A stretch of DNA of 27,408 nt, taken from positions 1 through 27,408 of IMG/VR virus record IMGVR_UViG_3300033484_000012. The stretch is one strand, 5' to 3'. Within the stretch, counting starts at the first letter, position 1, and each line of letters starts with the position of its first letter. The notes beneath the pieces are model-generated. The model worked only from the letters and a program-made list of their open reading frames with translations. It was not told the DNA's origin and did no database searches. The DNA comes from a virus. Shown here piece after piece: positions 5,593 through 26,284 of this stretch. A program made the position numbers and the translations under genes.

Positions 5593-5765
5593 AGTCTTTC
5601 GAGGTGCGGACGGCCGATGGCCGCACGAAGACGCATTATGCCGACGCGCTGCGCGTGGAGAACGGCGTGGCGATGATCGTCAGCCTGGGCGAGGTCATCG
5701 CGGTCTACGCCGCGCCGATCAGCATCGAGACGAAGTACATCAGCACCGCGGCGGCAGCGGAATGA
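5589..5765 (+). CDS. Small protein of unknown function
   Basis: This 58-aa protein starts MKSFEVRTADGRTKTHYADA. It looks like a compact beta-rich fold, with strands SFEVRTA, ALRVENGVAMIVS and EVIAVYAA. Small proteins of this shape, in which a modified-residue or sequence context is read as VRTADG..HYAD, are common between HNH and terminase genes, but I cannot name a family. It overlaps the kinase-HNH gene by ATGA at its start and the methyltransferase-like stub by ATGA at its end, which is good evidence that it is translated. Confidence 0.7.
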   Translation: MKSFEVRTADGRTKTHYADALRVENGVAMIVSLGEVIAVYAAPISIETKYISTAAAAE

Positions 5766-5905
5766 GCGACTGGCGGCTGACGCACGGCGACGCGTGGGAG
5801 GCGCTGGCGGCGCTGGATCCCGAGTCGGTCGACGCGATCGTCACCACGCACAGCGCGGGCTGCCCAAAGCAGCGCCAGGCGGGGCTGAACGGTGATCGGG
5901 CATAA
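5762..5905 (+). pseudogene. Truncated N-terminus of a DNA methyltransferase
   Basis: The 47-aa reading frame starts MSDWRLTHGDAWEALAALDP and continues ESVDAIVTTHSAG. This closely follows the N-terminus of phage DNA methyltransferases of the DPPY type (typical pattern W-x-L-x-HGD-x3-L-x-L-P-x-x-SVDA-I-V-T-D-P-P-Y). The match stops at IVT, exactly where the catalytic DPPY motif should follow; here it reads THSAGCPKQ, and the frame ends 20 codons later. No SAM-binding or later motifs are found before the small terminase, which begins 14 bases inside this frame. It therefore looks like the stump of a deleted methyltransferase gene, although the ATGA coupling means the short peptide is probably still made. 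Confidence 0.6.
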
Positions 5906-6308
5906 CATCCCGCCGCCCGCCTGGGGGATTTACGGCTTCAGCGCCGACGAGGCCGAGCTGGCTGCGCGGCAGTGGGCGGCGATCACCGCTGCGCTCGCTG
6001 CCGAGGGCCGCCTCACCGCCGTCACCGCGCACCCGGCCGAGCGGCTGGTGATCGCGCGCGTGCTCTACGCGCGCGCGGCCGCGCTGGCAGCGAGCGGCGA
6101 GCTGGTCGAACAATCGGAAAAGGGCGGAGCCTACCAGGCGGCAGCCGTCACCGTCATGAACGCGCAGTCGGCGGCGGCGAGCCGCCTGGAGGCCGAGCTG
6201 AAGCTCAGCCCCAAGGCGCGTGGAGCTTACGGCGCGGACGCGAAGGAGGGCCCGAGCGCCCCCGCGAGCCGCGCCACCCAATCGCGAGGCGGCCTTGGCA
6301 TCGCCTGA
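5892..6308 (+). CDS. terS: Terminase small subunit, P27-like
   Basis: The 138-aa product starts at GTG 5892. The small terminase binds the phage DNA packaging site and hands it to the large subunit. The helical sequence ends with AASRLEAELKLSPKARGA, resembling the C-terminal L-x-L-S/T-P-x-x-R motif of P27-family small terminases. The place directly before the large terminase supports the call. The first 60 residues (FSADEAELAARQWAAITAAL) show no obvious HTH, so the N-terminus diverges from better-known members. It overlaps the methyltransferase stub by 14 bases and the large terminase by 14 bases. Confidence is moderate to good because of position and the C-terminal motif. Confidence 0.75.
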   Translation: MIGHNIPPPAWGIYGFSADEAELAARQWAAITAALAAEGRLTAVTAHPAERLVIARVLYARAAALAASGELVEQSEKGGAYQAAAVTVMNAQSAAASRLEAELKLSPKARGAYGADAKEGPSAPASRATQSRGGLGIA

Positions 6309-8304
6309 GCACGCCCACCTCCACGCGCCCGTCCGCGCGCCCGACGGCCTGGCGCTGCCGTGCAGCTTCGCCGACTGGCTGGCGGCGCGCGCGGCCGAGG
6401 CCGAGCTGCTGCCCTATGAGGCGTGGGTGGAAGCCGAGCTGCCGCCGACGCAGCTTCTGGACCGCACCACCGAATATGCGCGCTGGGTGATCGCGGGCGG
6501 CCGCGTAGCGGGGTGCATCGAGCGAGGCAGCTGCGCGCGGCACCTGGCCGACCTTGAGGGCGGCGACGAGCGCGACCTCGTTTGGCGGCCCGACGAGGCC
6601 GAGCGCGTCATCGATTTCTACCCGCAGCACTTCTCGATCACCGATGGCCCTGCGGCGGGCCAGCCGTTCGCGCTTCTGCCGTGGATGCTGTTCACCAGCG
6701 GATCGCTGTTCGGCTGGGCGAAGCACGGCGCGCCGAGCAAGGCGGGCGAGCGCAAGCTGCGCTGGCGCTTTCAGAACGCATGGCTGGAAACGGGCAAGGG
6801 CCAGGGCAAGTCGCCCTATCTCGCCGCGACCGGGATCCTTGCGATCAGCGCCTTCGCCCGCCGCCGCGCCGAGGCCTTCGCGGTGGCGCCCAAGGAAGAC
6901 CAGGCGATGGTGGTGCTGCGCGACGCGGCCGCCTTCCTGCGCGGCCCGATACCGCACGAAGACGAAGGCGTCACGTGGGAGGGGCTGGGCAAGTTCAAGA
7001 TCTACGGCCTCAACAACAACGCCGACAACATCATCCACAACGCGTCGAAGAGCTTCTTTTTGGCGCAGGGCGGCAATGCGCTGAAGGTTTCGGGCCCGCG
7101 CCCGGTGTTCGTGAGCATCGACGAGGTGCACGAGCTGCCCGACGGGCGGCTGATCGACATGTGGCTGGCTGCGGTCGAGAAGGTGGCCGAAGGCGGTATC
7201 GTCCTCGAAGCGACCAACACGCCCGCGCTCGACCAGGCCTATGCCACCGCGCGCGCGGCCGAGCGCCACGCGATTGCGCTGGGCGAGGCGCACGACGACA
7301 GCGTGTTCGTGTTCGCGGCGCGCGCCGACGACGCCGACGGCAAGGTCGACCCCGAGACGGGGCTGCCGCGCATCGTCACCAGGCCCGAGCTGTGGGGCAA
7401 GGCACTGCCCGCGCTCGCTGACAGCTTCCCGCTGGAGAACGCCTATGCCATCTGGGCGAAGGCGCGCGCATCGAGCAGCGACCGCGCGCGGGCGCTGAGG
7501 CTCTATGGCGGCCTCTCCGCCGGCGCGATCGACTTCTGGATGGAGGATGCGAGCCTGTGGGAGGCCGCGCGCGAGCCCGTCGACGAAGCGAAGCTGGTCA
7601 ACCTGCCCTGCTATCTGGCGCTCGACCTCAGTTCGAAGAACGACCTGACCGGCCTGTCGGCGTGCTGGGTCGACGCCGCGCCCGGGCAGTCGCCCGACGA
7701 GGCGCGGCGCATCACCAAGGATTGGGGCTGGACCGTCGAGGAGCGGCTGGCCGAACGCGCCAAGGCCGACCGCGCGCCCTATGAGGCGTGGGTCCGCGAC
7801 GGCCAGCTGACCGCGGTGCCCGGCGGCGCGATCGAGTATGAGTATGTGGCGGGCCAGGTGGCCGCGCTGGTGGCGACGCACGACGTCCAGCTGCTGGCGG
7901 TCGATCCGCACAAGCTCGGCGACTTCATCAAGGCGTGCGAGCGGATCGGGCTGAAGGTGTGGCTGTGGCAGGGCCCCGACCAGCCGCGCGGCCAGGGCCT
8001 GAAGATCGTCAAGCACGCGCAGGGCACGCGCGTGGTGTTCGAGGGGCTGCAGCTGTGCATGCCGCGCTCGATCGAGAAGCTTGAGGATCTGCTGCTGCGG
8101 CGCGCGATCGTCGTCGACCGCAATCCAGTCAGCAACGCCTGCGCCTACAACGCCGCGATTGAGCGCGACGCCAAGGAAAACCGCGCCTTCGACAAGAAGC
8201 GCAGCCGCGGGCGCATCGATCTGCTCGTGTCAAAGACGATGGCCGTCGGCGCGAGCTTCGGGGAAGCCAAGAAGAAAGGACCGGCTCGGCTGAGCATCCT
8301 GTGA
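6295..8304 (+). CDS. terL: Terminase large subunit, HK97-type
   Basis: The 669-aa product (TTG start at 6295) is the ATPase and nuclease that pumps DNA into the prohead and cuts concatemers. The ATPase domain has Walker A GKGQGKS at residues 168-173, preceded by AWLETG, and Walker B VFVSIDEVHEL with Asp276/Glu277. The nuclease domain has the expected acidic residues in YLALDLSSKNDLTGL (Asp444), LLAVDPHKLGDF (Asp537) and RIDLLVSKTMAVG (Asp642). The frame is open upstream to a GTG at 6220; I prefer the TTG at 6295 because GAGG lies 5 bases upstream and the overlap with terS is then short, but the start is uncertain. It ends in a GTGA junction with the portal gene. The family assignment is secure. 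Confidence 0.93.
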   Translation: MASPEHAHLHAPVRAPDGLALPCSFADWLAARAAEAELLPYEAWVEAELPPTQLLDRTTEYARWVIAGGRVAGCIERGSCARHLADLEGGDERDLVWRPDEAERVIDFYPQHFSITDGPAAGQPFALLPWMLFTSGSLFGWAKHGAPSKAGERKLRWRFQNAWLETGKGQGKSPYLAATGILAISAFARRRAEAFAVAPKEDQAMVVLRDAAAFLRGPIPHEDEGVTWEGLGKFKIYGLNNNADNIIHNASKSFFLAQGGNALKVSGPRPVFVSIDEVHELPDGRLIDMWLAAVEKVAEGGIVLEATNTPALDQAYATARAAERHAIALGEAHDDSVFVFAARADDADGKVDPETGLPRIVTRPELWGKALPALADSFPLENAYAIWAKARASSSDRARALRLYGGLSAGAIDFWMEDASLWEAAREPVDEAKLVNLPCYLALDLSSKNDLTGLSACWVDAAPGQSPDEARRITKDWGWTVEERLAERAKADRAPYEAWVRDGQLTAVPGGAIEYEYVAGQVAALVATHDVQLLAVDPHKLGDFIKACERIGLKVWLWQGPDQPRGQGLKIVKHAQGTRVVFEGLQLCMPRSIEKLEDLLLRRAIVVDRNPVSNACAYNAAIERDAKENRAFDKKRSRGRIDLLVSKTMAVGASFGEAKKKGPARLSIL

Positions 8305-10326: not shown

Positions 10327-11781
10327 ATGGCACAAAGCATCACAATCGACGCAGGCGGGGCCGAACTGGCGCAGAGCGACATGGCCGCGCTGATCGCAGC
10401 CGCTGCCGGAGCGAGCCGTGGCTTCGAGGTCAAAAGCGAAGGCGGTGGGGAGGATCCGAGGGCCGATCCCACCGCCGAACTGATCACGAAGATGGGCAGT
10501 CTCGTCGAGCGCCAGGCGAAGGCACACGAGGAGCTGAAGTCAAAGGTCGACAAGCTTGCCGGCCAGGAGGCGAAGGGCGGCGGCGACGCGGTCACCAAGG
10601 CCGAGATCGCCAAGCTCGACGAGGCGCTGACGACGATCAGCGCCGAACTGAAGAGCCTGCACGCGCAGGCCGCGCGGCCGCGCGCCGAGGCTCCCACGCC
10701 CGACGCGGCGGCGCAGCTTTCGCTCAAGAGCTTCAACGCCGCGCGCGCGGCGTTTGGCGGCGAGCCCGTCGATCACAAGGGCTATGCCGACTATAGCGCA
10801 GCGATCGAGCGCTTTTTCCGCAAGGGGAAGGAGGCCTTCACCCCTGAGGAGGTGAAGGCCGTGGCCGTCGGCATCGACCCGGCCGGTGGCGCGCTGCTGG
10901 CGCCGACCGAGGTTGACACGATGATCACGCGCGTTCTCGCCCGCTATTCGGGCCTGCAGGCGGTTGCGGGCAGCGTGACGACGGGCGGTCGCAGCTACAC
11001 CAAGCTGGTCAACCTTTCAGGGATGAGTTCGGGTTGGGTCGGCGAGACCGAGGCGCGGCCCGAGACCGGAACGCCGCAGTTCGATTCGATCGAGATCCAG
11101 CTGAAGGAAGTCTACGCGCGGCCCTATGTCAGCCAGCTCGCGCTGGAAGACTCAGCGTTCGACGTGGCCGGGATCGTCGCGTCGGATGGCGGCATCGAGT
11201 TCGGCGAGCGCGTCGGAGCGGCAGTCATTTCGGGCGACGGCGTCACGCGCCCGCGCGGCCTGCTGAGCTACCCGACGGTCGCGAACGCCAGCTACGCCTG
11301 GGGCAGCATCGGCTTCGTCGGGTCGGGCAGTGCGACGGGCATCGCCGACGCGAACAACATCCTCAGCCTCATCCACGCGCTGCGCCGCCAGTACCGTGCG
11401 AACGGAGCGTTCATCATGAACGACCTGTCGCTGTCGGTCGTGCGGCAGCTGCGCAGCGCGCAGGGCGAGTATTATTTCCTGCCGAACGGCGGCACGCTGT
11501 CGACTGCGGACAATCCCATGATCCCGCGCGCCGAGGGCACGATCTTCGGATACCCGGTCTATACCGACGATTTCATGCCGGATTTCGCAGCGAATGCTTT
11601 CCCGATGGCGTTCGGAGACTTCGCGCAAGCCTACCTGGTCGTCACCAAGGCCGGGACCGACTTCACGCTGCGCGACCCGTACAGCCTCGCGAACCAGGGC
11701 CAGGTGGTGTTCCACATGCGACGGCGCGTCGGCGGCGGCGTCGTCAACTTCGAGGCCGTGAAGCTGCTCCGCGCGGCCTGA
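10327..11781 (+). CDS. Major capsid protein, HK97 fold
   Basis: The 484-aa product has an N-terminal scaffold-like delta domain of about 130 residues, including a coiled coil (LVERQAKAHEELKSKVDKLA), and then the HK97-fold domain. Recognisable stretches are GGALLAPTEVDTMITRVLAR, SGWVGETEARPETGTPQFD, VYARPYVSQLALEDSAFDV and ISGDGVTRPRGLLSYP; the end includes AQAYLVVTKAGTDFTLRDPY. It forms the icosahedral shell, and the upstream protease presumably removes the delta domain. GAGGA before the ATG is a good Shine-Dalgarno. I do not see which Lys/Asn pair, if any, would form HK97-type crosslinks. Confidence 0.95.
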   Translation: MAQSITIDAGGAELAQSDMAALIAAAAGASRGFEVKSEGGGEDPRADPTAELITKMGSLVERQAKAHEELKSKVDKLAGQEAKGGGDAVTKAEIAKLDEALTTISAELKSLHAQAARPRAEAPTPDAAAQLSLKSFNAARAAFGGEPVDHKGYADYSAAIERFFRKGKEAFTPEEVKAVAVGIDPAGGALLAPTEVDTMITRVLARYSGLQAVAGSVTTGGRSYTKLVNLSGMSSGWVGETEARPETGTPQFDSIEIQLKEVYARPYVSQLALEDSAFDVAGIVASDGGIEFGERVGAAVISGDGVTRPRGLLSYPTVANASYAWGSIGFVGSGSATGIADANNILSLIHALRRQYRANGAFIMNDLSLSVVRQLRSAQGEYYFLPNGGTLSTADNPMIPRAEGTIFGYPVYTDDFMPDFAANAFPMAFGDFAQAYLVVTKAGTDFTLRDPYSLANQGQVVFHMRRRVGGGVVNFEAVKLLRAA

Positions 11782-11845: not shown

Positions 11846-12289
11846 ATGATCATGGATATCATCAACCGGATTTCGGCAGCGATCAGCCTGGCGCCGCTTG
11901 TCCGGACCGCGACCGCAGTCGGCGTGGCCGTCGACATGCAGGGGAACGCCGCCGGCGGGCTCCTCATCTACGGCGGGGTCGGCGGCATCACCTTCGACGC
12001 GAACAACCGCATCGACCACGTGCTGGAATACAGCCAGGACGGATCGACGTGGACGCAGGTCTCGCGCGGCGACGTCTATCGCCAGGGCGAGAAAGACCCG
12101 TTCGCGATCACGAACGGCGTAATCGAAAGCTATAGCGCGGCGCGCGCGGCTGCTGGCTTCACCGCCTACCACTTCAACCGTCTGGCGCGCTACTGGCGGC
12201 ATACCGCAACCTATGTCGGCACGCACGGCACCGGCACGCTGGTGCAGTCGATCATCGTGCGCGGCAGCAAACACCGGCTGAGCCAGTAA
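11846..12289 (+). CDS. Probable capsid-associated / decoration protein
   Basis: The 147-aa product begins MIMDIINRISAAISLAPLVR and seems beta-rich, with FDANNRIDHVLEYSQDGSTW and VSRGDVYRQGEKDPFAIT. It resembles small proteins that lie right after the capsid gene in many alphaproteobacterial siphophages and are thought to decorate the head; the pattern of a strand followed by DGSTWTQV is common in these. The ATG at 11846 has GGAG 6 bases upstream, while ATG 11852 is an alternative. Its stop overlaps the next start (TAATG). The head-decoration role is an inference from family resemblance and position. Confidence 0.65.
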   Translation: MIMDIINRISAAISLAPLVRTATAVGVAVDMQGNAAGGLLIYGGVGGITFDANNRIDHVLEYSQDGSTWTQVSRGDVYRQGEKDPFAITNGVIESYSAARAAAGFTAYHFNRLARYWRHTATYVGTHGTGTLVQSIIVRGSKHRLSQ

Positions 12290-13026
12290 TGGAACGCAAG
12301 TTCATGGGGGCGTTGAACGCCCCCACCGCGCCGCTGTGGACGCCGCGCGGACCGCTGCGGCCCGAGACGATCGCGCTGCTGAAGCGGCTCGATATCGATC
12401 CGGCGCTGCTGACGGCGCCCGAGACGAAGGGCATCAACCCCAGCGGCAAGAACGTCGCGCTGACGGCGCTGCTGGCGGCGATCACGCATGTGAGCGCGCA
12501 CTCGGCCTTTCCGGGCACCGCTGGCAGCAGCGAGCTTTCGGGCGGCACCTACGCGCGCCAGCCCGTCACGTGGGGGACGGTGGCGGGCGGCATCGGAGCG
12601 CTTTCCGCTGCGGCGACGCTGCCGATTCCCTCGGGCGCCACGGTGCGCTGGATCGCGGGCTTCACGGCGCTGACGGGCGGCACCTGCCACGCGACCGTCC
12701 CGGCGGGCGGCTTCGATCCGCTGGAATATACAGTCGACACGACCGGCTCGCTCATCCAGCTGCCAGCACACGGCTTCGCGGCGGATACCACGATTGCCTT
12801 CCACGGCGGCACCCCGCCGGGCGGGCTGACCGAGGGCGTCACCTACTTCGTGCGCTCGCCGACCGCCAACAGCTTCGCCGTCGGCGCGACTGCGGGCGGT
12901 GCCGCGATCACGCTGACGACCGTCGGTGCCACCGGCTGCTTCGTGCAGCAGATCGCCGAGCAGCCCTTCGCCACCGCCGGGCAGTACCAGCTGACGACCG
13001 GCACGCAGTTCAGCCTGAACTTCTAG
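12289..13026 (+). CDS. Fibre-like structural protein with an inserted beta domain
   Basis: The 245-aa product has an N-terminal region (about 1-75) that is helical and basic, followed by a fibre-associated domain: HSAFPGTAGSSELSGGTYAR, QPVTWGTVAGG, then SGATVRWIAGFTALTGGTC, ending in EQPFATAGQYQLTTGTQ. This order matches a family generally annotated as phage tail fibre protein. Between residues about 142 and 224 the domain is interrupted by an insert (LIQLPAHGFAADTTIAFHGG, VTYFVRSPTANSFAVG) that looks like a separate small beta domain common in other phage structural proteins. It overlaps the previous gene (TAATG). Its position, between capsid and connector, is unusual for a fibre gene. Confidence 0.7.
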   Translation: MERKFMGALNAPTAPLWTPRGPLRPETIALLKRLDIDPALLTAPETKGINPSGKNVALTALLAAITHVSAHSAFPGTAGSSELSGGTYARQPVTWGTVAGGIGALSAAATLPIPSGATVRWIAGFTALTGGTCHATVPAGGFDPLEYTVDTTGSLIQLPAHGFAADTTIAFHGGTPPGGLTEGVTYFVRSPTANSFAVGATAGGAAITLTTVGATGCFVQQIAEQPFATAGQYQLTTGTQFSLNF

Positions 13027-13033
13027 GGCCACC

Positions 13034-14188
13034 GTGGCGCACGTCACCGCAGACCGCGTCAGCGAGACGAGCGCCACGACGGGGACGGGCGCCTACGCGC
13101 TCGCCGGAGCCGAGGCGGGTCGGCAGGCCTTCGGCACGGTGCTTGCGACGGGCGACACGGCGCTGTGCGTGGCGGAGGCGATCGATGCCAACGGCAACGC
13201 GAGCGGCGCGTGGGAGGCGTTCCTCGGCACGATGCAGGCAGGCGGCGGCCTCGCGCGCACCACGATCCTCGCCAGCTCGAATGCGGGCGCCGCGGTCAAC
13301 TGGAGCGCGGGCACCAGGCGCGTCTTCATCGGCCAGGTGGCCGGGCGCGCCAAGCCGCTGACGCAGGTTTTCAGCTCCAGCGGCACCTACAGCGTGCCAC
13401 CCGACGCGTCGGCGGTGGAGGTGTTCGTCTGGGGCGGCGGCGGCGGCGGCGGTTCCGGCCAGCGCGCTGGCTCGGGCACGCAGGCGGGCGGCGGCGGCGG
13501 CGGCGGCGGCGGCGGCTTCAGCTGGGCGCGGCTCGATCCGGCGGCGCTGGGCAGCAGCGTCAGCGTGACGGTCGGCGCGGGCGGCAGCGGCGGCGCCGCC
13601 GCGTCGACCGACAGCACGTCGGGCGTCAACGGCAGCTCGGGCAGCGCCTCGTCGTTCGGTGCCTTCGTGGCAGCGGGCGGCGGGGCCAACGGCACCGGCG
13701 GCTTCGGCGCGTCGAGCACCGGCGGCAACGGCGGCGGCGGCATGTCGGGCTACCAGACCGGCGGCGCTGGGGGCGTCAGCAACAATGTCGGCGCGCGCGG
13801 CCAGTCGTTCGCGGCGGGCGGCGGCGGCGGCGGCGGCCCGATCACCTCATCCGATACCGCGCTCGGCGGCCAGGCGGGCGGCGGCGATTCCTATGGAGCG
13901 ACCGGCAACAACTTCACCGCTGGCGGCGGCGGCGGCGCGGGCGGCACGTCGGGAGTCAATGGCACCTCGCCTGCTGCGCGCGCGAGCAGCGATCGTCGCG
14001 GCGGCCAGGGCGGTGGCGGAGGCGCTGCGGGCGGTGGCTCGTCGGGTTCGACGCCGAGCGCGGGCGGAGCGGGCCAGCTGCCCGGCGGCGGCGGCGGCGG
14101 CGGCGGCGGATCGCGCAACGGCACGCTTTCGGGCGCAGGCGGGGCCGGAGGAAACGGCCTCGTCATCGTGGTCACGCACTTCAATTGA
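13034..14188 (+). CDS. Polyglycine-rich fibre or adhesin
   Basis: The 384-aa product starts at GTG 13034 with AGGG upstream. Residues 1-105 are a fibre N-domain of a type seen in many phages (DRVSETSATTGTGAYALAGA, then ARTTILASSNAGAAVNWSAG). From residue about 112 comes TQVFSSSGTYSVPPDASAVE, the entry to a glycine-rich domain, then several runs of 7-10 consecutive Gly separated by short loops, ending in AGGNGLVIVVTHFN. Glycine-rich modules of this type in phage adhesins (for example S16 Gp38) pack into polyglycine II helices whose loops decide receptor specificity. Here the loops (QRAGSGTQA, TSGVNGSSGSASSF, TSSDTALGGQA) would be the variable surface. The Gly runs are coded largely by GGC repeats, which may slip without breaking frame. 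Host receptor binding is inferred from the family. Confidence 0.75.
   Translation: MAHVTADRVSETSATTGTGAYALAGAEAGRQAFGTVLATGDTALCVAEAIDANGNASGAWEAFLGTMQAGGGLARTTILASSNAGAAVNWSAGTRRVFIGQVAGRAKPLTQVFSSSGTYSVPPDASAVEVFVWGGGGGGGSGQRAGSGTQAGGGGGGGGGGFSWARLDPAALGSSVSVTVGAGGSGGAAASTDSTSGVNGSSGSASSFGAFVAAGGGANGTGGFGASSTGGNGGGGMSGYQTGGAGGVSNNVGARGQSFAAGGGGGGGPITSSDTALGGQAGGGDSYGATGNNFTAGGGGGAGGTSGVNGTSPAARASSDRRGGQGGGGGAAGGGSSGSTPSAGGAGQLPGGGGGGGGGSRNGTLSGAGGAGGNGLVIVVTHFN
13428..13516 (+). repeat. GGC trinucleotide-rich stretch coding for polyglycine
   Basis: Two long runs of mostly GGC codons (around 13432-13452 and 13488-13516) encode Gly8 and Gly10 within the fibre gene. Further shorter runs follow at 13819-13840 and 14089-14109. 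Such triplet tracts can gain or lose units in frame. Confidence 0.85.
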
Positions 14189-14201
14189 CGGGAGAACAGC
14201 A

Positions 14202-14555
14202 ATGGACAGGTTCGCATTCATCGAGCTTTCGACGCTGAAGGTCACGCAGATCACCGATGGCCCGCAATCGGGCTTCGACGAATCGAAGTTCGCTCAGAAG
14301 CAGCTGGGCGCTGACGAGGCGTGCCAGGTCGGCTGGCTGTTCAACCCGACGACCGGGCAGTTCATGGAGCCAGACCCGGCCTTCGCGCCGCCGCCGACGC
14401 TCGCCGAGCAGCTCGACGCGCTGAAGGGCCAGATCGCGAGCATGAAGGACTCGCGCGACCATCTGACCTCGCAGGTGTCGTTGCTGTCGACGAAGATCGA
14501 CGAGGCCGAGGCGACGCAGTCCGCGATCAAGGCGCAGATCGGGCTGCAGGGCTAG
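14202..14555 (+). CDS. Fibre-associated small protein with C-terminal coiled coil
   Basis: The 117-aa product has a compact N-terminal part (FAFIELSTLKVTQITDG, then CQVGWLFNPTTGQFMEPDP) and a long helix over about residues 68-115 (LAEQLDALKGQIASMKDSRD, SLLSTKIDEAEATQSAIK) that should form a coiled coil. Proteins in which VGWxFN-x-TGQF-x-P precedes a helix are common next to fibre genes, as fibre chaperones or connectors. The ATG is supported by GGGAGA. It lies directly after the polyglycine gene, consistent with a folding or trimer-linking partner. The exact function is not shown. Confidence 0.65.
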   Translation: MDRFAFIELSTLKVTQITDGPQSGFDESKFAQKQLGADEACQVGWLFNPTTGQFMEPDPAFAPPPTLAEQLDALKGQIASMKDSRDHLTSQVSLLSTKIDEAEATQSAIKAQIGLQG

Positions 14556-14561
14556 CGAGCG

Positions 14562-15371
14562 GTGTTCGGTGGCGCACCCGTTGCTGCCGTGCCGTTCGGA
14601 GCGGCGCCCCGGCTGGCCGCCGCCGCCGCCGCTGCCATCACCGTGGCGTCACGCTTCGGCAGCGGCATCGGCGCACGTGGCGCGGCGGTGGCGTCGATCG
14701 CTCCGCGCCTGCGCCTGGGCACGGGCGCGGCCTCGCGCGCGAGCGCGGTGCCGGTGGCAGCAGGCGGCGGGCGCGGCGGCGCGGGGCCGGGCGCGCGAGG
14801 CTCGGCAGTGCCGCTCGCGCCTGTGCCGGCACGCGGCGGCAGCGGAGCTGCGGCGCGCGGCGTTCCCACTCCGCTCGCCGTCGTGCCCGGGCGCGGCGGC
14901 AGCGGTGCGGGTGGGCGCGGCGTGCCGGTGGCGCTGACTCCCGTCGGCGGACGCGGCGGAAGCGGCGCGGCAGCACGCGGCACGGGCAGCCCGGCCGTTG
15001 CGGTCGGAGCGCGTGGCGGCAGCGGGTCGGCGGGGCGCAGCAGCGGCTCGGCGATCGTCGCGGCGCTGCGCTTCGCGGCTGGCGTCGCGCTGCGCGTCGT
15101 CGGCTCGCCGCGCATCGTCACCGGCGCGCGCGGCAGCGGCGGCGGCGCCGCAAAGGCCCCGGCCCGGCCGGTCGTCAGCCTCGCAGCGCGAGGGGGCAGC
15201 GGCGCTGCGGGCGCGGCGCGCGTGTCGCCGATCCTGCGCGCAGCGGCGCGCACCGGCGCAGGCACCGTCCTCATCGCGATCGTGCTGGCGGCGGCGGGGT
15301 ATCGCCCCAGCCGCATCAGGGCGCGGCTCATCGATCTGCGCCGCAAAAGCCACGCGCGGAGAAGTTCATGA
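14562..15371 (+). CDS. RGGSG 20-residue tandem-repeat protein of unknown function
   Basis: The 269-aa product (GTG start) is made largely of tandem 20-residue units that alternate a loop of the form RGGSGAAARG with a hydrophobic beta-like strand (VPLAPVPA, PTPLAVVP, VPVALTPV, SPAVAVGA). Clear units start at Arg71, Arg91, Arg111, Arg131 and Arg151, with decayed ones before and after. The C-terminus has a hydrophobic helix (TGAGTVLIAIVLAAAGY) followed by an Arg-rich tail (RPSRIRARLIDLRRKSHARR), possibly a membrane- or protein-docking end. The product is strongly basic. I know no family with this layout. The ATGA overlap with the connector gene argues that it is translated. The regular strand-loop pattern suggests a fibrous or solenoid protein; a role in head, neck or fibre is inferred from position. 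Confidence 0.6.
   Translation: MFGGAPVAAVPFGAAPRLAAAAAAAITVASRFGSGIGARGAAVASIAPRLRLGTGAASRASAVPVAAGGGRGGAGPGARGSAVPLAPVPARGGSGAAARGVPTPLAVVPGRGGSGAGGRGVPVALTPVGGRGGSGAAARGTGSPAVAVGARGGSGSAGRSSGSAIVAALRFAAGVALRVVGSPRIVTGARGSGGGAAKAPARPVVSLAARGGSGAAGAARVSPILRAAARTGAGTVLIAIVLAAAGYRPSRIRARLIDLRRKSHARRSS
14771..15190 (+). repeat. 60-bp tandem repeat (20-codon unit)
   Basis: The motif CGCGGCGGCAGCGG and variants recur with exact 60-base spacing at about 14772, 14832, 14892, 14952 and 15012, with decayed copies near 15127 and 15187. The units encode the RGGSG loop of the host gene. Divergence between units is moderate, so the array is not a recent expansion. Confidence 0.8.
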
Positions 15372-16180
15372 TCCTCCGCAGCGCCAACGACGCGATCGAC
15401 GTTGTCAACGAATGGCTGCTCGACACCGGCGTCACCATCACCGGGTCGAGCTGGTCGATCGACCCGGGCGGGCCCGGCGCGCCGGTGCTGCAGGCGGCAC
15501 AGCTGCCGATCGACGGCAGCTTCACTGCGATCATCCCCGTCGGCGGCACGCCGGGCGGGCGCTACACGATTTCGAACACCGTCACGCTGTCGAACGGGCT
15601 GGCCGACACGCACACCGACACGCTGCTGATCGAGGGCGGCACCGTCGTCGCGATCGACGAGGCGAAGGCGGCCCTGGGGATCGCGGCCGAGGTTGAGGAC
15701 CACGACGCCGAAATCCATAACCTGATCCTCGCAGCCGAGGCGCGCGCCGAGCAGCTGAGCGGGGTCGCGGGGCTGCTGCGCACGGCGACCTACGCCTTCC
15801 GCGCGCCCGCCGCCGCAGAGCTGCGGCTTCCGGTGCGCCCCGTGCAGGCGGTGACCGGCGTCAGCGTCCGCGCTCCGGGTGGTGAGCAGAGCGCGTGGAC
15901 CGACTGGCGCCTCGCCGCTGCGAACGGCGTCGCGCGCCTGCGCGCCCGAGCAGGCACCGCGTGGCCGTCGGTTGAGGATGCGCCCGACGCCTATGAAGTG
16001 ACGGCACAGGTCGGCCACGCCGATCGCGGGCTGGTGCCCGAGGCGTGGCGGCGCGCCGTGACGGCGCTGGTCGTCCACTGGTTCGACCATCGCGGTGCGC
16101 TGGCGATGGCCGATCAGGCGCGCTCGCTGCCCGATGGCCCGGCGGCGCTGCTGCGCTCGCTTCGGCGGCCGACGCCCTGA
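15368..16180 (+). CDS. Fusion of a fibre-adaptor-like domain with a gp6-like head-tail connector
   Basis: The 270-aa product has two parts. Residues 1-98 (DVVNEWLLDTGVTITGSSWS, then TAIIPVGGTPGGRYTISNTV) look like the small beta protein that in many HK97-like phages is a separate gene near the connector and is often annotated as phage fiber-tail adaptor. From about residue 99 follows a gp6-like connector: AIDEAKAALGIAAEVEDHDA, EIHNLILAAEARAEQLSGVA, which forms the ring below the portal. A C-terminal tail (EAWRRAVTALVVHWFDHRGA) ends the connector part. The start at 15368 overlaps the repeat-protein gene by ATGA. The frame is continuous, so the fusion is not a frameshift artefact. The connector call is solid; the adaptor assignment is by resemblance. 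Confidence 0.8.
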   Translation: MILRSANDAIDVVNEWLLDTGVTITGSSWSIDPGGPGAPVLQAAQLPIDGSFTAIIPVGGTPGGRYTISNTVTLSNGLADTHTDTLLIEGGTVVAIDEAKAALGIAAEVEDHDAEIHNLILAAEARAEQLSGVAGLLRTATYAFRAPAAAELRLPVRPVQAVTGVSVRAPGGEQSAWTDWRLAAANGVARLRARAGTAWPSVEDAPDAYEVTAQVGHADRGLVPEAWRRAVTALVVHWFDHRGALAMADQARSLPDGPAALLRSLRRPTP

Positions 16181-16551
16181 TGCCGCCGCGCACCCCGACA
16201 CCCGGCGATCTGCGCGAGATCGTCACGCTTGAGCAGCCGCCGTCGCTCGACGACGGCGCGGGCGGGCGCACGGGCACGTGGCAGCGCGTGGCGCGCCTAC
16301 CCGCGATGGTCGAGGCCGAGCAGGGGTCGCTCGCGGTCGAGGGTTCGCTGGCGACTGGCGCGACCCGCTTCCGCGTGACGATCCGCCCGCGCGCGCTCGG
16401 CACCGGCTGGCGGCTCGGCTGGACCGACACGGTGGGGCAGAGCTGGCGGCTGATCGTGCGCGCGCAGCTGCCGATGGGCCAGCGCCCGCTGTTCCTGCAA
16501 CTGATCTGCGAGGGCACGCTGCTCGCCGACGGGGAGCCGGGCAATGGCTAG
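16180..16551 (+). CDS. Head-closure / head-tail adaptor protein
   Basis: The 123-aa product starts at the ATG that overlaps the connector stop (TGATG). It reads PGDLREIVTLEQPPSLDDGA, GGRTGTWQRVARLPAMVEA, and then RFRVTIRPRALGTGWRLGW, in the order of the phage head-tail joining family (SPP1 gp16-like). It binds below the gp6-like ring and closes the filled head before tail joining. Length and position are standard. Confidence 0.85.
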   Translation: MPPRTPTPGDLREIVTLEQPPSLDDGAGGRTGTWQRVARLPAMVEAEQGSLAVEGSLATGATRFRVTIRPRALGTGWRLGWTDTVGQSWRLIVRAQLPMGQRPLFLQLICEGTLLADGEPGNG

Positions 16552-22821: not shown

Positions 22822-23318
22822 TCGGCGCGCCCGTCCACCCCGACTGGGACGCGCGGCTGACCGCGATGATCGCGGCGCGGACGCTTCGCCCGTTCGAATG
22901 GGGGCGGCAGGACTGCGTCACGCTCGCCGCCGCCGCTGCGCTGGCGATGAGCGGCACGCGGCCGCCGCTGCTCCAGGGGCTAAGCTGGCGAAGCGGCGCC
23001 GGAGCCGGGCGGGCCTTGCGGCAGCTCGGCTGCGCGGACCTGCTCGCCGCCGCCGATGCGGCATTCGGCGCGCGGCACGGGCCGCTGTCGGCGGGAGCCG
23101 GATGGATCGTCGCTGCGCCCGCGACCGAACTCCCCTGCCCCGCCGACGATGATCCGGGCGGAGCGTTCGGCCACGCGCTCGGCGTGATGTGGCGGGGCCA
23201 TGCGCTGTTCGCCGGAGCAGACGGGCTGGTCGCGCAGCCGCCGCGCAACCTGGTCGCCAGCTGGCAGCCGTGGGGCCACCGGCTGGCAAGATCGGGAGAG
23301 GCGGCGTGCCGCAGCTAA
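22818..23318 (+). CDS. NlpC/P60-like tail peptidase candidate (GTA gp14 position)
   Basis: The 166-aa product has [20 protein letters not shown] near its N-terminus, with Cys33 in the WGRxDC motif, and [20 protein letters not shown] further on, with His119. A Cys followed by a distant His is the layout of NlpC/P60-like cysteine peptidases; this WG-x-x-D-C variant matches the DUF6950 family common in alphaproteobacterial phages. In GTAs and lambda (gpK) the equivalent protein locally opens peptidoglycan during DNA entry. Here the third catalytic residue is not obvious, so activity is uncertain. It overlaps neighbouring genes at both ends. Confidence 0.78.
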
Positions 23319-26284
23319 TCCCACTCGGCGCGGCTGCGATCGCAACCGCTGCGGGGGCCACCGCCACCGTCGTCAGCCTGGTCGCGACCGCTGCCAGCGT
23401 CGTCACCAGCCTCGCCTTCGGGGGCAGCGCCAAGCCCAGGCTTTCGAACTTCGACCCCAAGAGCGTCAGCCTCGACGCAGCCACCCCGCGCAAGTTCCTG
23501 CTGGGGCGCGGCGTCTTCGTGTCGGACCTGCGCTATTTCGAGGCGTCAGGGGCGAACCAGGAATATATCGACTACGTCTTCGTGCTCGCCGCGCACAAGT
23601 CGGACGCGGTCGAGCAGATCTGGATCGACGACAAGCTGGCGTGGGACAACGGCTACATCCCCGGCACCTACGCCGGGGTGCTCAGCGTCGAGATCATCCT
23701 CGAGGCCGGACCGGGCGCGTACCACACCGTCAACAGCAGCGGAGCGTGGGGTGCAGCGCAGCGGCTGACTGGCTGCACGACCGCGAAGCTGCGCGTGAAG
23801 CGCACCACCAGCGGGCGGTTCAATGGCGGGCTGCAGAATAAGGTGACCTTCGTGGGGCGCGGGATGCCGCTCTACGATCCGCGCTTCGACAGCACGAATG
23901 GCGGCACGGGCAGCCAGCGGCCAGACGACTGCTCGACCTGGGTGTGGAGCGACAACGCCACTGCGGCGGCGCTGTCGCTGATGCTCGGCTGGCGCATCAC
24001 CAACCCGTCGACGGGCGCGAAGAAGGTGAGCGTCGGCTACGGCGTGCCGTGGTCGCGCATCCGCGGCGACCGCGCGCGCTGGGCGGCAGCGAACGCAACG
24101 TGCGCCGAATCGGTCACCACGCGCGACGGCCTGACCGAGCCGCGCTTCCGCGTCAGCGCGACGCGGAGCGACTCCGACGATCCGCTCACCTGTCTCGGCC
24201 TGCTGACCGCGGCGGCAGCGGCGGAGCTCGACGATTCGACGGGTTCGATCGGCATCCGCGTGGCGCAGAACGACCTGGCCGGGCCGCTGCCCGCGTTCAC
24301 CGACGCGGACATCACGGGCGCGGTGCGCTGGACGCCGCAGCCGCCGATCGCCGAGCAATATACCGTCGTGCGCGGCCGCTATCTCGAGCCAGCCGCGCCG
24401 ACACTTTACAACCCTGTCGACTTCGCCGAGCAGGCGGTGCCCCGGCCGACTGCGGGCGGCGAACGGCCCCTGGCCGAGGAGCTGCTGGCCGTGCCGAGCC
24501 GCAGCCAGGCCGAGCGGCTGGCGAAGATGGCGGGCCAGCGCAGCCTCTATTCGGGCGTCGCCGAGCTGCCGATGAACCTGCGCGCCAGCCGCCTGAAGGT
24601 GGGCGACCCGTTCACGCTGAGCTTCGCGCCCCGCAACTGGACGAACAAGCTCGTGCGCGTGCGGCGCAAGCGCTTCGAGGTGAGCGACGGCCGCCTGAAC
24701 GTCGTCATCACCGCGCGCGAGGAGAACGCCGCGATCTATGCGTGGGACCGCGAGGAGTCGCCCAAGATCACCGCGACGACGCCAAACGCCTACGACGCAA
24801 GCAACAACCCGATCGTGCGCGCAACGGCGGCTGCGGCGACGACGGCGACGTGGGCGGCGATCACGGGCGCGCCGCAGAACACGCAGAACCTCGTCCGCAC
24901 GATCTCGGCCGCCGACGGCGTCGGCACGTGGGTGGCAGCGGTCGGCGCGATCAGCTCGGTCGCGGTTTCTGGCCGGCCCTATTCGCGCGCCTTCCAGCTG
25001 ACGACGCCCGACGCGAGCAGCTATGCATTCGCCGACGACACGCCGCGGCGCGCGATCCCGGTAACGCCGGGCGAGACGCTTTACATCTCGGCCGAGTGCG
25101 ACACCACCGGTGCACCCGGCGGCGCGTTGTTCTACACCAATATCTACGACAAGACCGGCACGCAGATCGACAGCTCGGGCCGGGTGAACTTCGCGGGCGG
25201 GCAGGCATGGAGCGCTGGCGCGGCGGTGCCCTATGTGGTGCCGGCGGGCGGCGCGACGATGGCCGCGTCGATGGCGGTTGTGCCGGGCGGCGGCGTGGTC
25301 GGCACTGCGCGCTTCGCCCAGATGTCGATCGCGCGCTTCCAGCCCGGTGCGACCACCAACGTGCCGCGCGGCGCGTGGGTATCGGGCGGCGGCTATCAGC
25401 TCGGCGATTTCGTCACGCGCAGCGGCAACGGCTGGATCTCCATCGTCGCGCACAGCGGCGTGACGACTCCGCCCGAGAGCGATCCGACGCGCTGGGCGGG
25501 GCCGTATGGCGTGCAGGGCTCGCCGGGCGCTCCGGGCGCGACGGGCCCGACCGGGCCGACGGGCTCGCCGGGCGCTCCGGGCCCGACCGGGCCGACCGGG
25601 CCGACGGGCTCGCCGGGCGCTCCGGGCCCGACCGGGCCGACGGGCTCGCCGGGCGCTCCGGGCCCGACCGGGCCGACCGGGCCGACGGGCGCGACCGGGC
25701 CGACCGGGCCGACCGGGCCGACGGGCGACAGCACGCGCGTTATCTACCAGCGCGCAGCGACGCAGCCCGCGACGCCGTCGGCGGGCAGCGGCACGCCCTC
25801 GGGCTGGTACAGCACGGTCGCCTCGGTGCCCGCGGCGGCTGCACCGATGTGGGCGTCGATCGGCACGCTTTCGGGCGGCACGATCACGTGGCAGTCGCCG
25901 GTGCGCATCGAGGCGCTGACGACGGTTGCGGGCTTCCAGGGCGCAGCGCAGATCACCGGGTCGGGCAGCACACCGTTCACGATCGCGGTGGCTGCCGGCG
26001 CATCGGTGCCGATCAGCGCTGCGGTTTCGGTCACGTCGTCGAGCGGCAGCGGCACGGTCTATGTCGACATCAACTACGGGCCGGTCGGCGGATCGGTGAC
26101 GACGGTCGCGGACGCGACCGGCACGCCGGTCACTCCGACAGAGCCGGGCCAGACATCGAACAGCGCGACGATCTTCAACGGCGGGTCCGCGCGGGTGCTG
26201 TATCAGGTCTACGCCTCTGTGCGGCGGCTCGGCTCGCCCACGCTCAGCTACTCGCCGTCGCAATCGGTCATCACTGCGGGGTAG
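23306..26284 (+). CDS. Tail tip / host-specificity protein with collagen-like stalk
   Basis: The 992-aa product starts at GTG 23306 with GGGAGAGG upstream. The N-terminus is hydrophobic ([20 protein letters not shown]), typical of J-like/GTA gp15 tail-tip proteins. Residues about 50-510 are the conserved tail-tip core: [38 protein letters not shown], and later [20 protein letters not shown]. At about 689-731 lies a module of the [15 protein letters not shown] type resembling a chitin/carbohydrate-binding fold. Residues 735-809 are 25 collagen-like Gly-X-Y triplets, many GPT. The last 180 residues ([36 protein letters not shown]) form a beta-rich tip. It likely binds the host surface. The fusion of central tail tip and fibre in one gene is unusual in length but not unique. 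Confidence 0.88.
25508..25732 (+). repeat. Collagen-like Gly-X-Y repeat
   Basis: Twenty-five uninterrupted G-X-Y triplets run from GVQ to GDS, mostly GPT with GSPGAP modules. At DNA level the GSPGAP module starts at 25517, 25562, 25607 and 25643, spacings of 45, 45 and 36 bases, which suggests unit-scale recombination. Such repeats in phages form triple-helical trimer stalks. Confidence 0.95.

Follow-up and report, generated by a model that had tools for sequence, protein, structure and literature searches.

A candidate neck-fibre cassette in a phage head module, with a putative fibre-anchor domain fused to the head-tail adaptor

The virus record IMGVR_UViG_3300033484_000012, analysed here over positions 1 to 27,408 (27,408 nt, the window), carries a cassette of fibre genes within its head module, between the genes for the major capsid protein (MCP) and the connector. 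The connector itself starts with a Gp77 domain. In the phage GP4, the Gp77 domain forms the collar that holds the fibres. As judged from sequence, the cassette probably encodes a neck-anchored fibre, in a variant of the GP4 collar-and-fibre system that has the anchor fused to the adaptor. We put the probability of this reading at roughly three in four. At the sequence level it is well supported by gene order, domain identities, the fusion, the repeats and the recurrence of the arrangement in related loci.

Results

The connector gene (15368..16180, plus strand) encodes a fusion protein of 270 residues, with an N-terminal Gp77 collar/fibre-tail adaptor domain (residues 11-83, about 15398-15616) followed by a gp6/Rcc01688-type head-tail adaptor (residues 94-267, about 15647-16168). 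An earlier note on this DNA had suspected such a fusion from the letters, and the family searches bear it out. The Pfam family PF23148 (GP4 fibre-tail adaptor gp77) matches with E 5.8e-10 and 40 bits against a cut-off of 27, over model positions 12-80 of 84. Downstream in the same open reading frame (ORF) are matches to PF05135 (E 2.8e-5) and TIGR02215 (E 1e-14, 54.7 bits against a cut-off of 39), and both PHROGs and NCBIfam call a head-tail adaptor for this C-terminal part. Searches of the Protein Data Bank (PDB) by phmmer with the connector and with the cassette's fibre protein returned nothing; profiles did give matches. The Gp77-domain profile, with the window sequence first, matched chain D of PDB entry 8JOU (E 1.4e-15), and the connector-body profile matched the adaptor of the gene transfer agent (GTA) RcGTA over its full length (6tba_2A, E 9e-16). 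In the AlphaFold2 model, the predicted local distance difference test score (pLDDT) exceeds 90 over most of the adaptor body, and Foldseek relates the model to the RcGTA neck adaptors (probability 1.00, E 2e-8). By profile and by model, the connector body has the RcGTA neck adaptor fold.

The fibre protein of the cassette (12289..13026, plus strand, 245 residues) contains a Gp80-type fibre-I domain (residues 54-137) and a second fibre-type module (residues about 145-222). PF23140 (GP4 fibre I gp80) matches above its cut-off by a narrow margin (E 1.6e-6, 28.9 bits against 27), and the Gp80-domain profile matches chain a of 8JOU (E 3.8e-7). The second module matches tail fibre families in PHROGs. 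By sequence comparison, a single solved complex, that of GP4 (8JOU), holds counterparts of both parts: fibre I for the fibre protein, and the collar protein for the fused domain. Counterparts of the second module are also found in connector ORFs of other loci, as an insert of ~80 residues (L111 and L113, both 6650-7504; L112, 7329-8183; L117, 2699-3553; comparison loci are given by L numbers). On sequence grounds, these inserts are another fibre-type domain built into an adaptor.

Two further genes follow on the plus strand. The first (13034..14188, 384 residues) encodes a glycine-rich fibre protein with an N-terminal docking-type domain followed by Gly_rich_2. It matches PF21722 (E 2.1e-9) and phrog_863 (E 2e-16), and its N-terminal 110 residues match tail fibre N-termini. 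In another locus, a homologue of this protein (L249_7, phmmer 3e-9) is encoded just before Gp77. The second gene (14202..14555, 117 residues) encodes a small protein with weak coiled-coil matches, all below cut-off. It follows a fibre gene and is possibly a fibre chaperone or partner.

The last gene before the connector (14562..15371, plus strand, 269 residues) encodes an RGGSG repeat protein with about 10 units of 20 residues. The repeat noticed earlier is genuinely periodic: at a lag of 20 residues the identity reaches 0.365, while shuffled sequences reach about 0.25 at most. Since scans of Pfam, PHROGs and NCBIfam gave no family match and the codon pattern is weak, this ORF is the least certain gene of the set. 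Proteins with repeats of 20-22 residues are also found upstream of Gp77 in podophages and prophages, including BcepMigl, DSL-LC06, L215-L217 and L221. In the Itty13 repeat protein, lag 20 comes out on top within the shuffle range, and phrog_19041 is common to the Itty13 and BcepMigl proteins. Genes for Gp80, a repeat protein and Gp77 are grouped in Itty13, DSL-LC06 and BcepMigl. PDB searches with the L216 repeat protein and with the repeat and pectate-lyase-like proteins of BcepMigl returned nothing. By its period and the recurrent upstream position, the RGGSG protein is a candidate GP4-type rope, in a class of low-complexity sequence for which homology is not demonstrable.

Fusions of the Gp77 domain are not confined to the window. 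The domain occurs in a standalone form, fused to gp6-like connectors, fused to Mu gp36-like connectors, and C-terminally on repeat shafts. The fusion to a gp6-like connector is found in the window and in L214, where a repeat-like ORF of 562 residues runs into the beginning of the gene for the fusion. An N-terminal Gp77 domain on a Mu gp36-like connector (PF07030) is present in L208 and L212, and L209-L211 look alike by eye. The Pfam score for Gp77 in L212 is below cut-off; in the genome search, 4 of the 5 Mu-like cases are above it. Long repeat proteins of L215 and L217 end in an in-frame Gp77 domain. In cultured phages, no fusion was detected at 80% query coverage.

The wider occurrence of Gp77 was surveyed in 396 Sphingomonadales genomes and in a sample of 385 Alphaproteobacteria, and about 50 neighbourhoods were analysed. 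Gp77 was detected in 92 of the Sphingomonadales genomes and in 7 of the sampled Alphaproteobacteria, several of the latter being weak or in much longer ORFs. The next gene after Gp77 is a gp6-like connector in 45 of 51 Gp77 loci. The gap between the MCP and connector genes is at least 1.2 kb in 40 of 42 loci with Gp77 versus 17 of 143 loci without it, with medians of 2.7 kb and 0.53 kb, respectively. The usual Sphingomonadales layout is TerL, portal, a protein of about 105 residues, a protease of about 130 residues, capsid, a protein of 400-1570 residues, often a small protein, Gp77 and connector. The large proteins between the MCP and Gp77 include two of spike type, one with a peptidase S74 chaperone domain (L225) and one pectate-lyase-like (L229), and also the L249 homologue of the window's glycine-rich protein.

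In gene sizes and order, the Sphingomonadales clusters resemble the RcGTA cluster, and they may likewise be GTAs. In L220-L259 and L095, RcGTA-like clusters carry a fibre or spike gene and Gp77 between a g5-like capsid gene and a g6-like adaptor gene. If these are GTAs, their particles may bear neck spikes that RcGTA lacks.

A second comparison set was defined by relatedness of the capsid protein and comprised 160 loci. Viral contigs scanned with the single connector, capsid and terminase sequences had yielded no relatives, and an alignment-based search was needed. The fusion is absent from all 160 loci; most of their connectors begin near the adaptor domain. Two of the 160 loci (L095 and L165) encode Gp77 in a gene of its own, just before the connector gene. 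Six connectors from phage records are without the N-terminal 95 residues. Long stop-to-stop N-terminal extensions of other connectors (L041, L066, L075 and others) were rejected as fusion candidates, being judged by eye to be non-coding upstream stretch.

The large gaps without Gp77 that were inspected hold opposite-strand serine proteases, a transposase and an esterase/lectin-type protein. The proteases are trypsin-like and are encoded between capsid and connector in L053, L063 and L081, all from Rhizobiales (Bosea, Nitrobacter). The esterase/lectin-type case is a protein of 481 residues, resembling an SGNH esterase/lectin, between capsid and connector (L124, 4009-5451), with no Gp77 nearby. 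The expectation that phages lacking the Gp77 domain also lack the cassette thus agrees with the contrast in gap lengths and is broken by L124 on one side and, on the other, by L218 and L258, which have Gp77 and less than 0.6 kb between capsid and connector. In L009 (MW202613), the major capsid gene at 5638-7290 is unannotated, and the public record lists an opposite-strand ORF over it.

The gene order of the window is TerL, portal, protease, HK97-type capsid (MCP, 10327-11781), five ORFs, connector, head completion protein, tail genes, tape measure and tail-tip hub. The five genes that the earlier note had placed before the connector were confirmed and are tightly packed: counted from the end of the first, the spacings up to the connector are -1, 7, 13, 6 and -4 nt, the last value being a 4-nt overlap of the connector start (15368) with the stop of the RGGSG ORF. 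A nucleotide search of phage records with this region gave no match.

The first of the five genes (11846..12289, plus strand, 147 residues; phrog_5707, E 6.8e-8) encodes a capsid-associated, decoration/cement-like protein. Its AlphaFold2 model is all-beta with a pLDDT of 85 and its structural matches are weak, all at E 0.001 or above; they are capsid jellyroll proteins of phages 7-7-1, BPP-1 and Carin1. The gene had been counted as a member of the cassette. It is present as described, but its membership was rejected, because its homologues directly follow the capsid gene in many phages without a cassette. By sequence, it is probably a separate capsid-associated gene outside the fibre set.

On the other side of the connector lies the gene for the head completion (stopper) protein (16180..16551, plus strand; PF05521, E 6.8e-10), the next ring below the adaptor. 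The tail-tip adhesin proposed at 23306-26284 was confirmed as a plus-strand gene for a hub/fibre with collagen-like repeats (23306..26284; phrog_5616, E 1.6e-62; Collagen, E 4e-13). By its family matches, this product is a second, ordinary adhesion site.

Discussion

The anchoring of fibres at the neck through the fused domain, as the earlier note had suggested, is the best-supported reading of the sequence data. We favour it because the fibre and the anchor match chains of one complex (8JOU), because the adjacency of Gp77 and connector recurs, and because Gp77 is fused to connectors of two families as well as to repeat shafts. We infer the ring stoichiometry, the contacts of the rope with Gp77 and with the beads, where the fibres sit in the virion and how they act in adsorption as follows. 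As in RcGTA, the head-tail adaptor would assemble from 12 subunits into a ring below the portal, and the Ig-like Gp77 domain at its N-terminus would present anchor sites encircling the neck. The anchor would then be part of the expected 12-fold adaptor instead of a separate 15-fold collar. The repeat protein may bind the Gp77 domain and act as a rope, on which the Gp80-domain protein would sit as beads. The glycine-rich protein could be a second or terminal adhesin, and the coiled-coil protein a helper. Neck fibres of this kind might touch the cell envelope first and reversibly, leaving the final contact to the tail-tip hub.

Several observations weigh against neck anchoring. The evidence for the window phage is from its sequence. 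In the AlphaFold2 model of the connector, pLDDT for the Gp77 domain is mostly under 60, because few Gp77 sequences could be supplied to the modelling. The RGGSG protein is without a family match, and its assignment as rope rests on period and position. The 51 Gp77 loci are mostly related Sphingomonadales clusters and not independent cases, so that the gap statistics are not independent evidence either. Gp80 was found in only 1 of the 396 Sphingomonadales genomes, where Gp77 is common, which argues that Gp80 and Gp77 are not obligate partners. Two loci with Gp77, L218 and L258, leave little space for a cassette. Finally, mycobacteriophages have their Gp77 and Gp80 genes among minor tail genes, and in the siphophage LSH1 a related module follows the lysis genes. 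Gene position alone thus does not fix the position in the virion.

Some of these points could also indicate that the cassette encodes tail-tip or side fibres and has its place in the head module by chance, with the fused Gp77 domain serving only as a structural collar to stiffen the neck or contact the capsid. The minor tail location of the mycobacteriophage genes, the two loci with Gp77 and little space, and the fibreless collar of Milano (PMC10491603) would fit such a scenario, as would the glycine-rich protein, the N-terminal domain of which occurs in tail fibres beside tail adaptor and chaperone genes. It leaves unaccounted for, however, that Gp77 is tied to fibre or spike genes at the same site in about 40 loci, that it is fused to repeat shafts, and that GP4 has the matching pair. 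We therefore regard tail fibres as an unlikely explanation.

Still less probable is a set of head spikes, with fibres attached to capsid vertices via the decoration-like protein as in RcGTA, and a Gp77 domain unrelated to them. The decoration-like gene is directly upstream, the PHROGs label of the Gp80 family is 'head protein', and RcGTA has head spikes with flexible fibres on its capsid pentamers (PMC7296036). However, many relatives have the decoration-like gene without a fibre cassette, Gp77 and Gp80 pair together across phages, and the PDB sequence searches with the fibre protein returned no RcGTA spike protein. That the cassette is a decayed remnant in which the repeat and glycine-rich ORFs are spurious, as the low-complexity GC-rich sequence, the long antisense ORFs over the same stretch and the weak codon signal of the RGGSG ORF might suggest, is very improbable in view of the tight packing with overlapping starts and stops, the clear 20-residue repeat, the domain matches of the glycine-rich ORF and the absence of any frame break.

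Neck anchoring may have a wider meaning. Rope and Gp77 could constitute a general plug-in neck-fibre module of podophages, siphophages, Mu-like prophages and Sphingomonadales GTA-like clusters, in which Gp77 has joined at least two unrelated adaptor families by separate fusion events; we advance this generalization tentatively, at somewhat less than even odds. If it is true, joining the collar to the 12-fold adaptor does away with the 15:12 mismatch, and Sphingomonadales GTA particles carry receptor-binding neck spikes, unlike RcGTA. In long-tailed phages, the search for receptor-binding proteins usually centres on the tail tip. An anchor domain beside, or fused to, a neck adaptor would be a simple sequence test for neck fibres. 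Neck anchoring would also explain the presence of fibre and tailspike genes inside head modules, and it predicts spikes on the Sphingomonadales GTA-like particles. The fusion could serve as a clean system to learn how collars handle symmetry mismatch.

Comparison with known systems

Neck fibres as such are not new. Fibres of other kinds are known at the necks of A-1(L), T4 and XM1. In the Anabaena phage A-1(L), a pentadecameric gp5 ring anchors five neck fibres in the form of bead chains (PMC10966104). The bead-chain form at the neck is shared with the fibre proposed here, but the proteins are different and A-1(L) is a myophage. No family or PDB match pointed to the lactococcal neck passage structures or to the T4 whiskers, with which no direct comparison was made. 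In Pseudomonas phage DEV, the 12-fold head-tail adaptor is surrounded by a collar of 15 N-terminal domains of gp53, which bear five fibres (PMC10925440). The anchor there belongs to the fibre, not to the adaptor. A passage of the same paper likens the collar, with its 15:12 mismatch to the adaptor ring, to that of GP4 ('like in the podophage GP4').

RcGTA is the reference for the connector body, which matches its adaptor Rcc01688 (PDB 6TBA) at full length and in predicted fold. The RcGTA adaptor has 197 residues and is without a Gp77 domain. Apart from the head spikes, baseplate fibres are described for RcGTA, and no neck fibre is reported (PMC7296036). The RcGTA spike protein was not among the PDB sequence matches of the window fibre in searches that included the RcGTA entries; Rcc01079 and Rcc01080 were not compared directly.

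A related module has also been described in a siphophage, Alishewanella phage LSH1. A 2026 paper reports a three-protein module, gp34-gp36, in its virions, with a working model of virion, Ig protein, fibril and payload, in which the Ig-fold protein is the proposed anchor (PMC13243795). One protein of the LSH1 module matches 8JOU_g. The module differs from the window cassette in its place after the lysis genes and in an anchor that is not fused to a connector, and the paper assigns it no attachment site. The arrangement is thus not unique: GP4-like podophages, LSH1 and mycobacteriophages carry related modules. No description of the adaptor fusion or of the recurrent connector-adjacent position was found in the literature searched.

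The Ralstonia phage GP4 (Zheng et al. 2023, J Mol Biol 435:168258) and its relative BcepMigl offer a close likeness. Like these phages, the window has a Gp77-type anchor and a Gp80-type fibre protein in one short cassette with a repeat protein between them. In BcepMigl, a protein with 20-residue repeats (phrog_19041) likewise lies between the anchor and fibre genes, in a similar arrangement with respect to the capsid gene. The GP4 tail of Zheng et al. 2023 reportedly combines a 15-fold adaptor with five fibres I, in which five gp80 dimers sit on a rope. In the podophage GP4, Gp77 is a protein of its own that can form a 15-fold ring, whereas the window has Gp77 fused in frame to a siphophage-type adaptor, an extra module in the fibre protein, and an added glycine-rich fibre and coiled-coil gene. 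In view of the in-frame fusion, the window cassette is best described as a variant of the GP4 type and not as a plain member.

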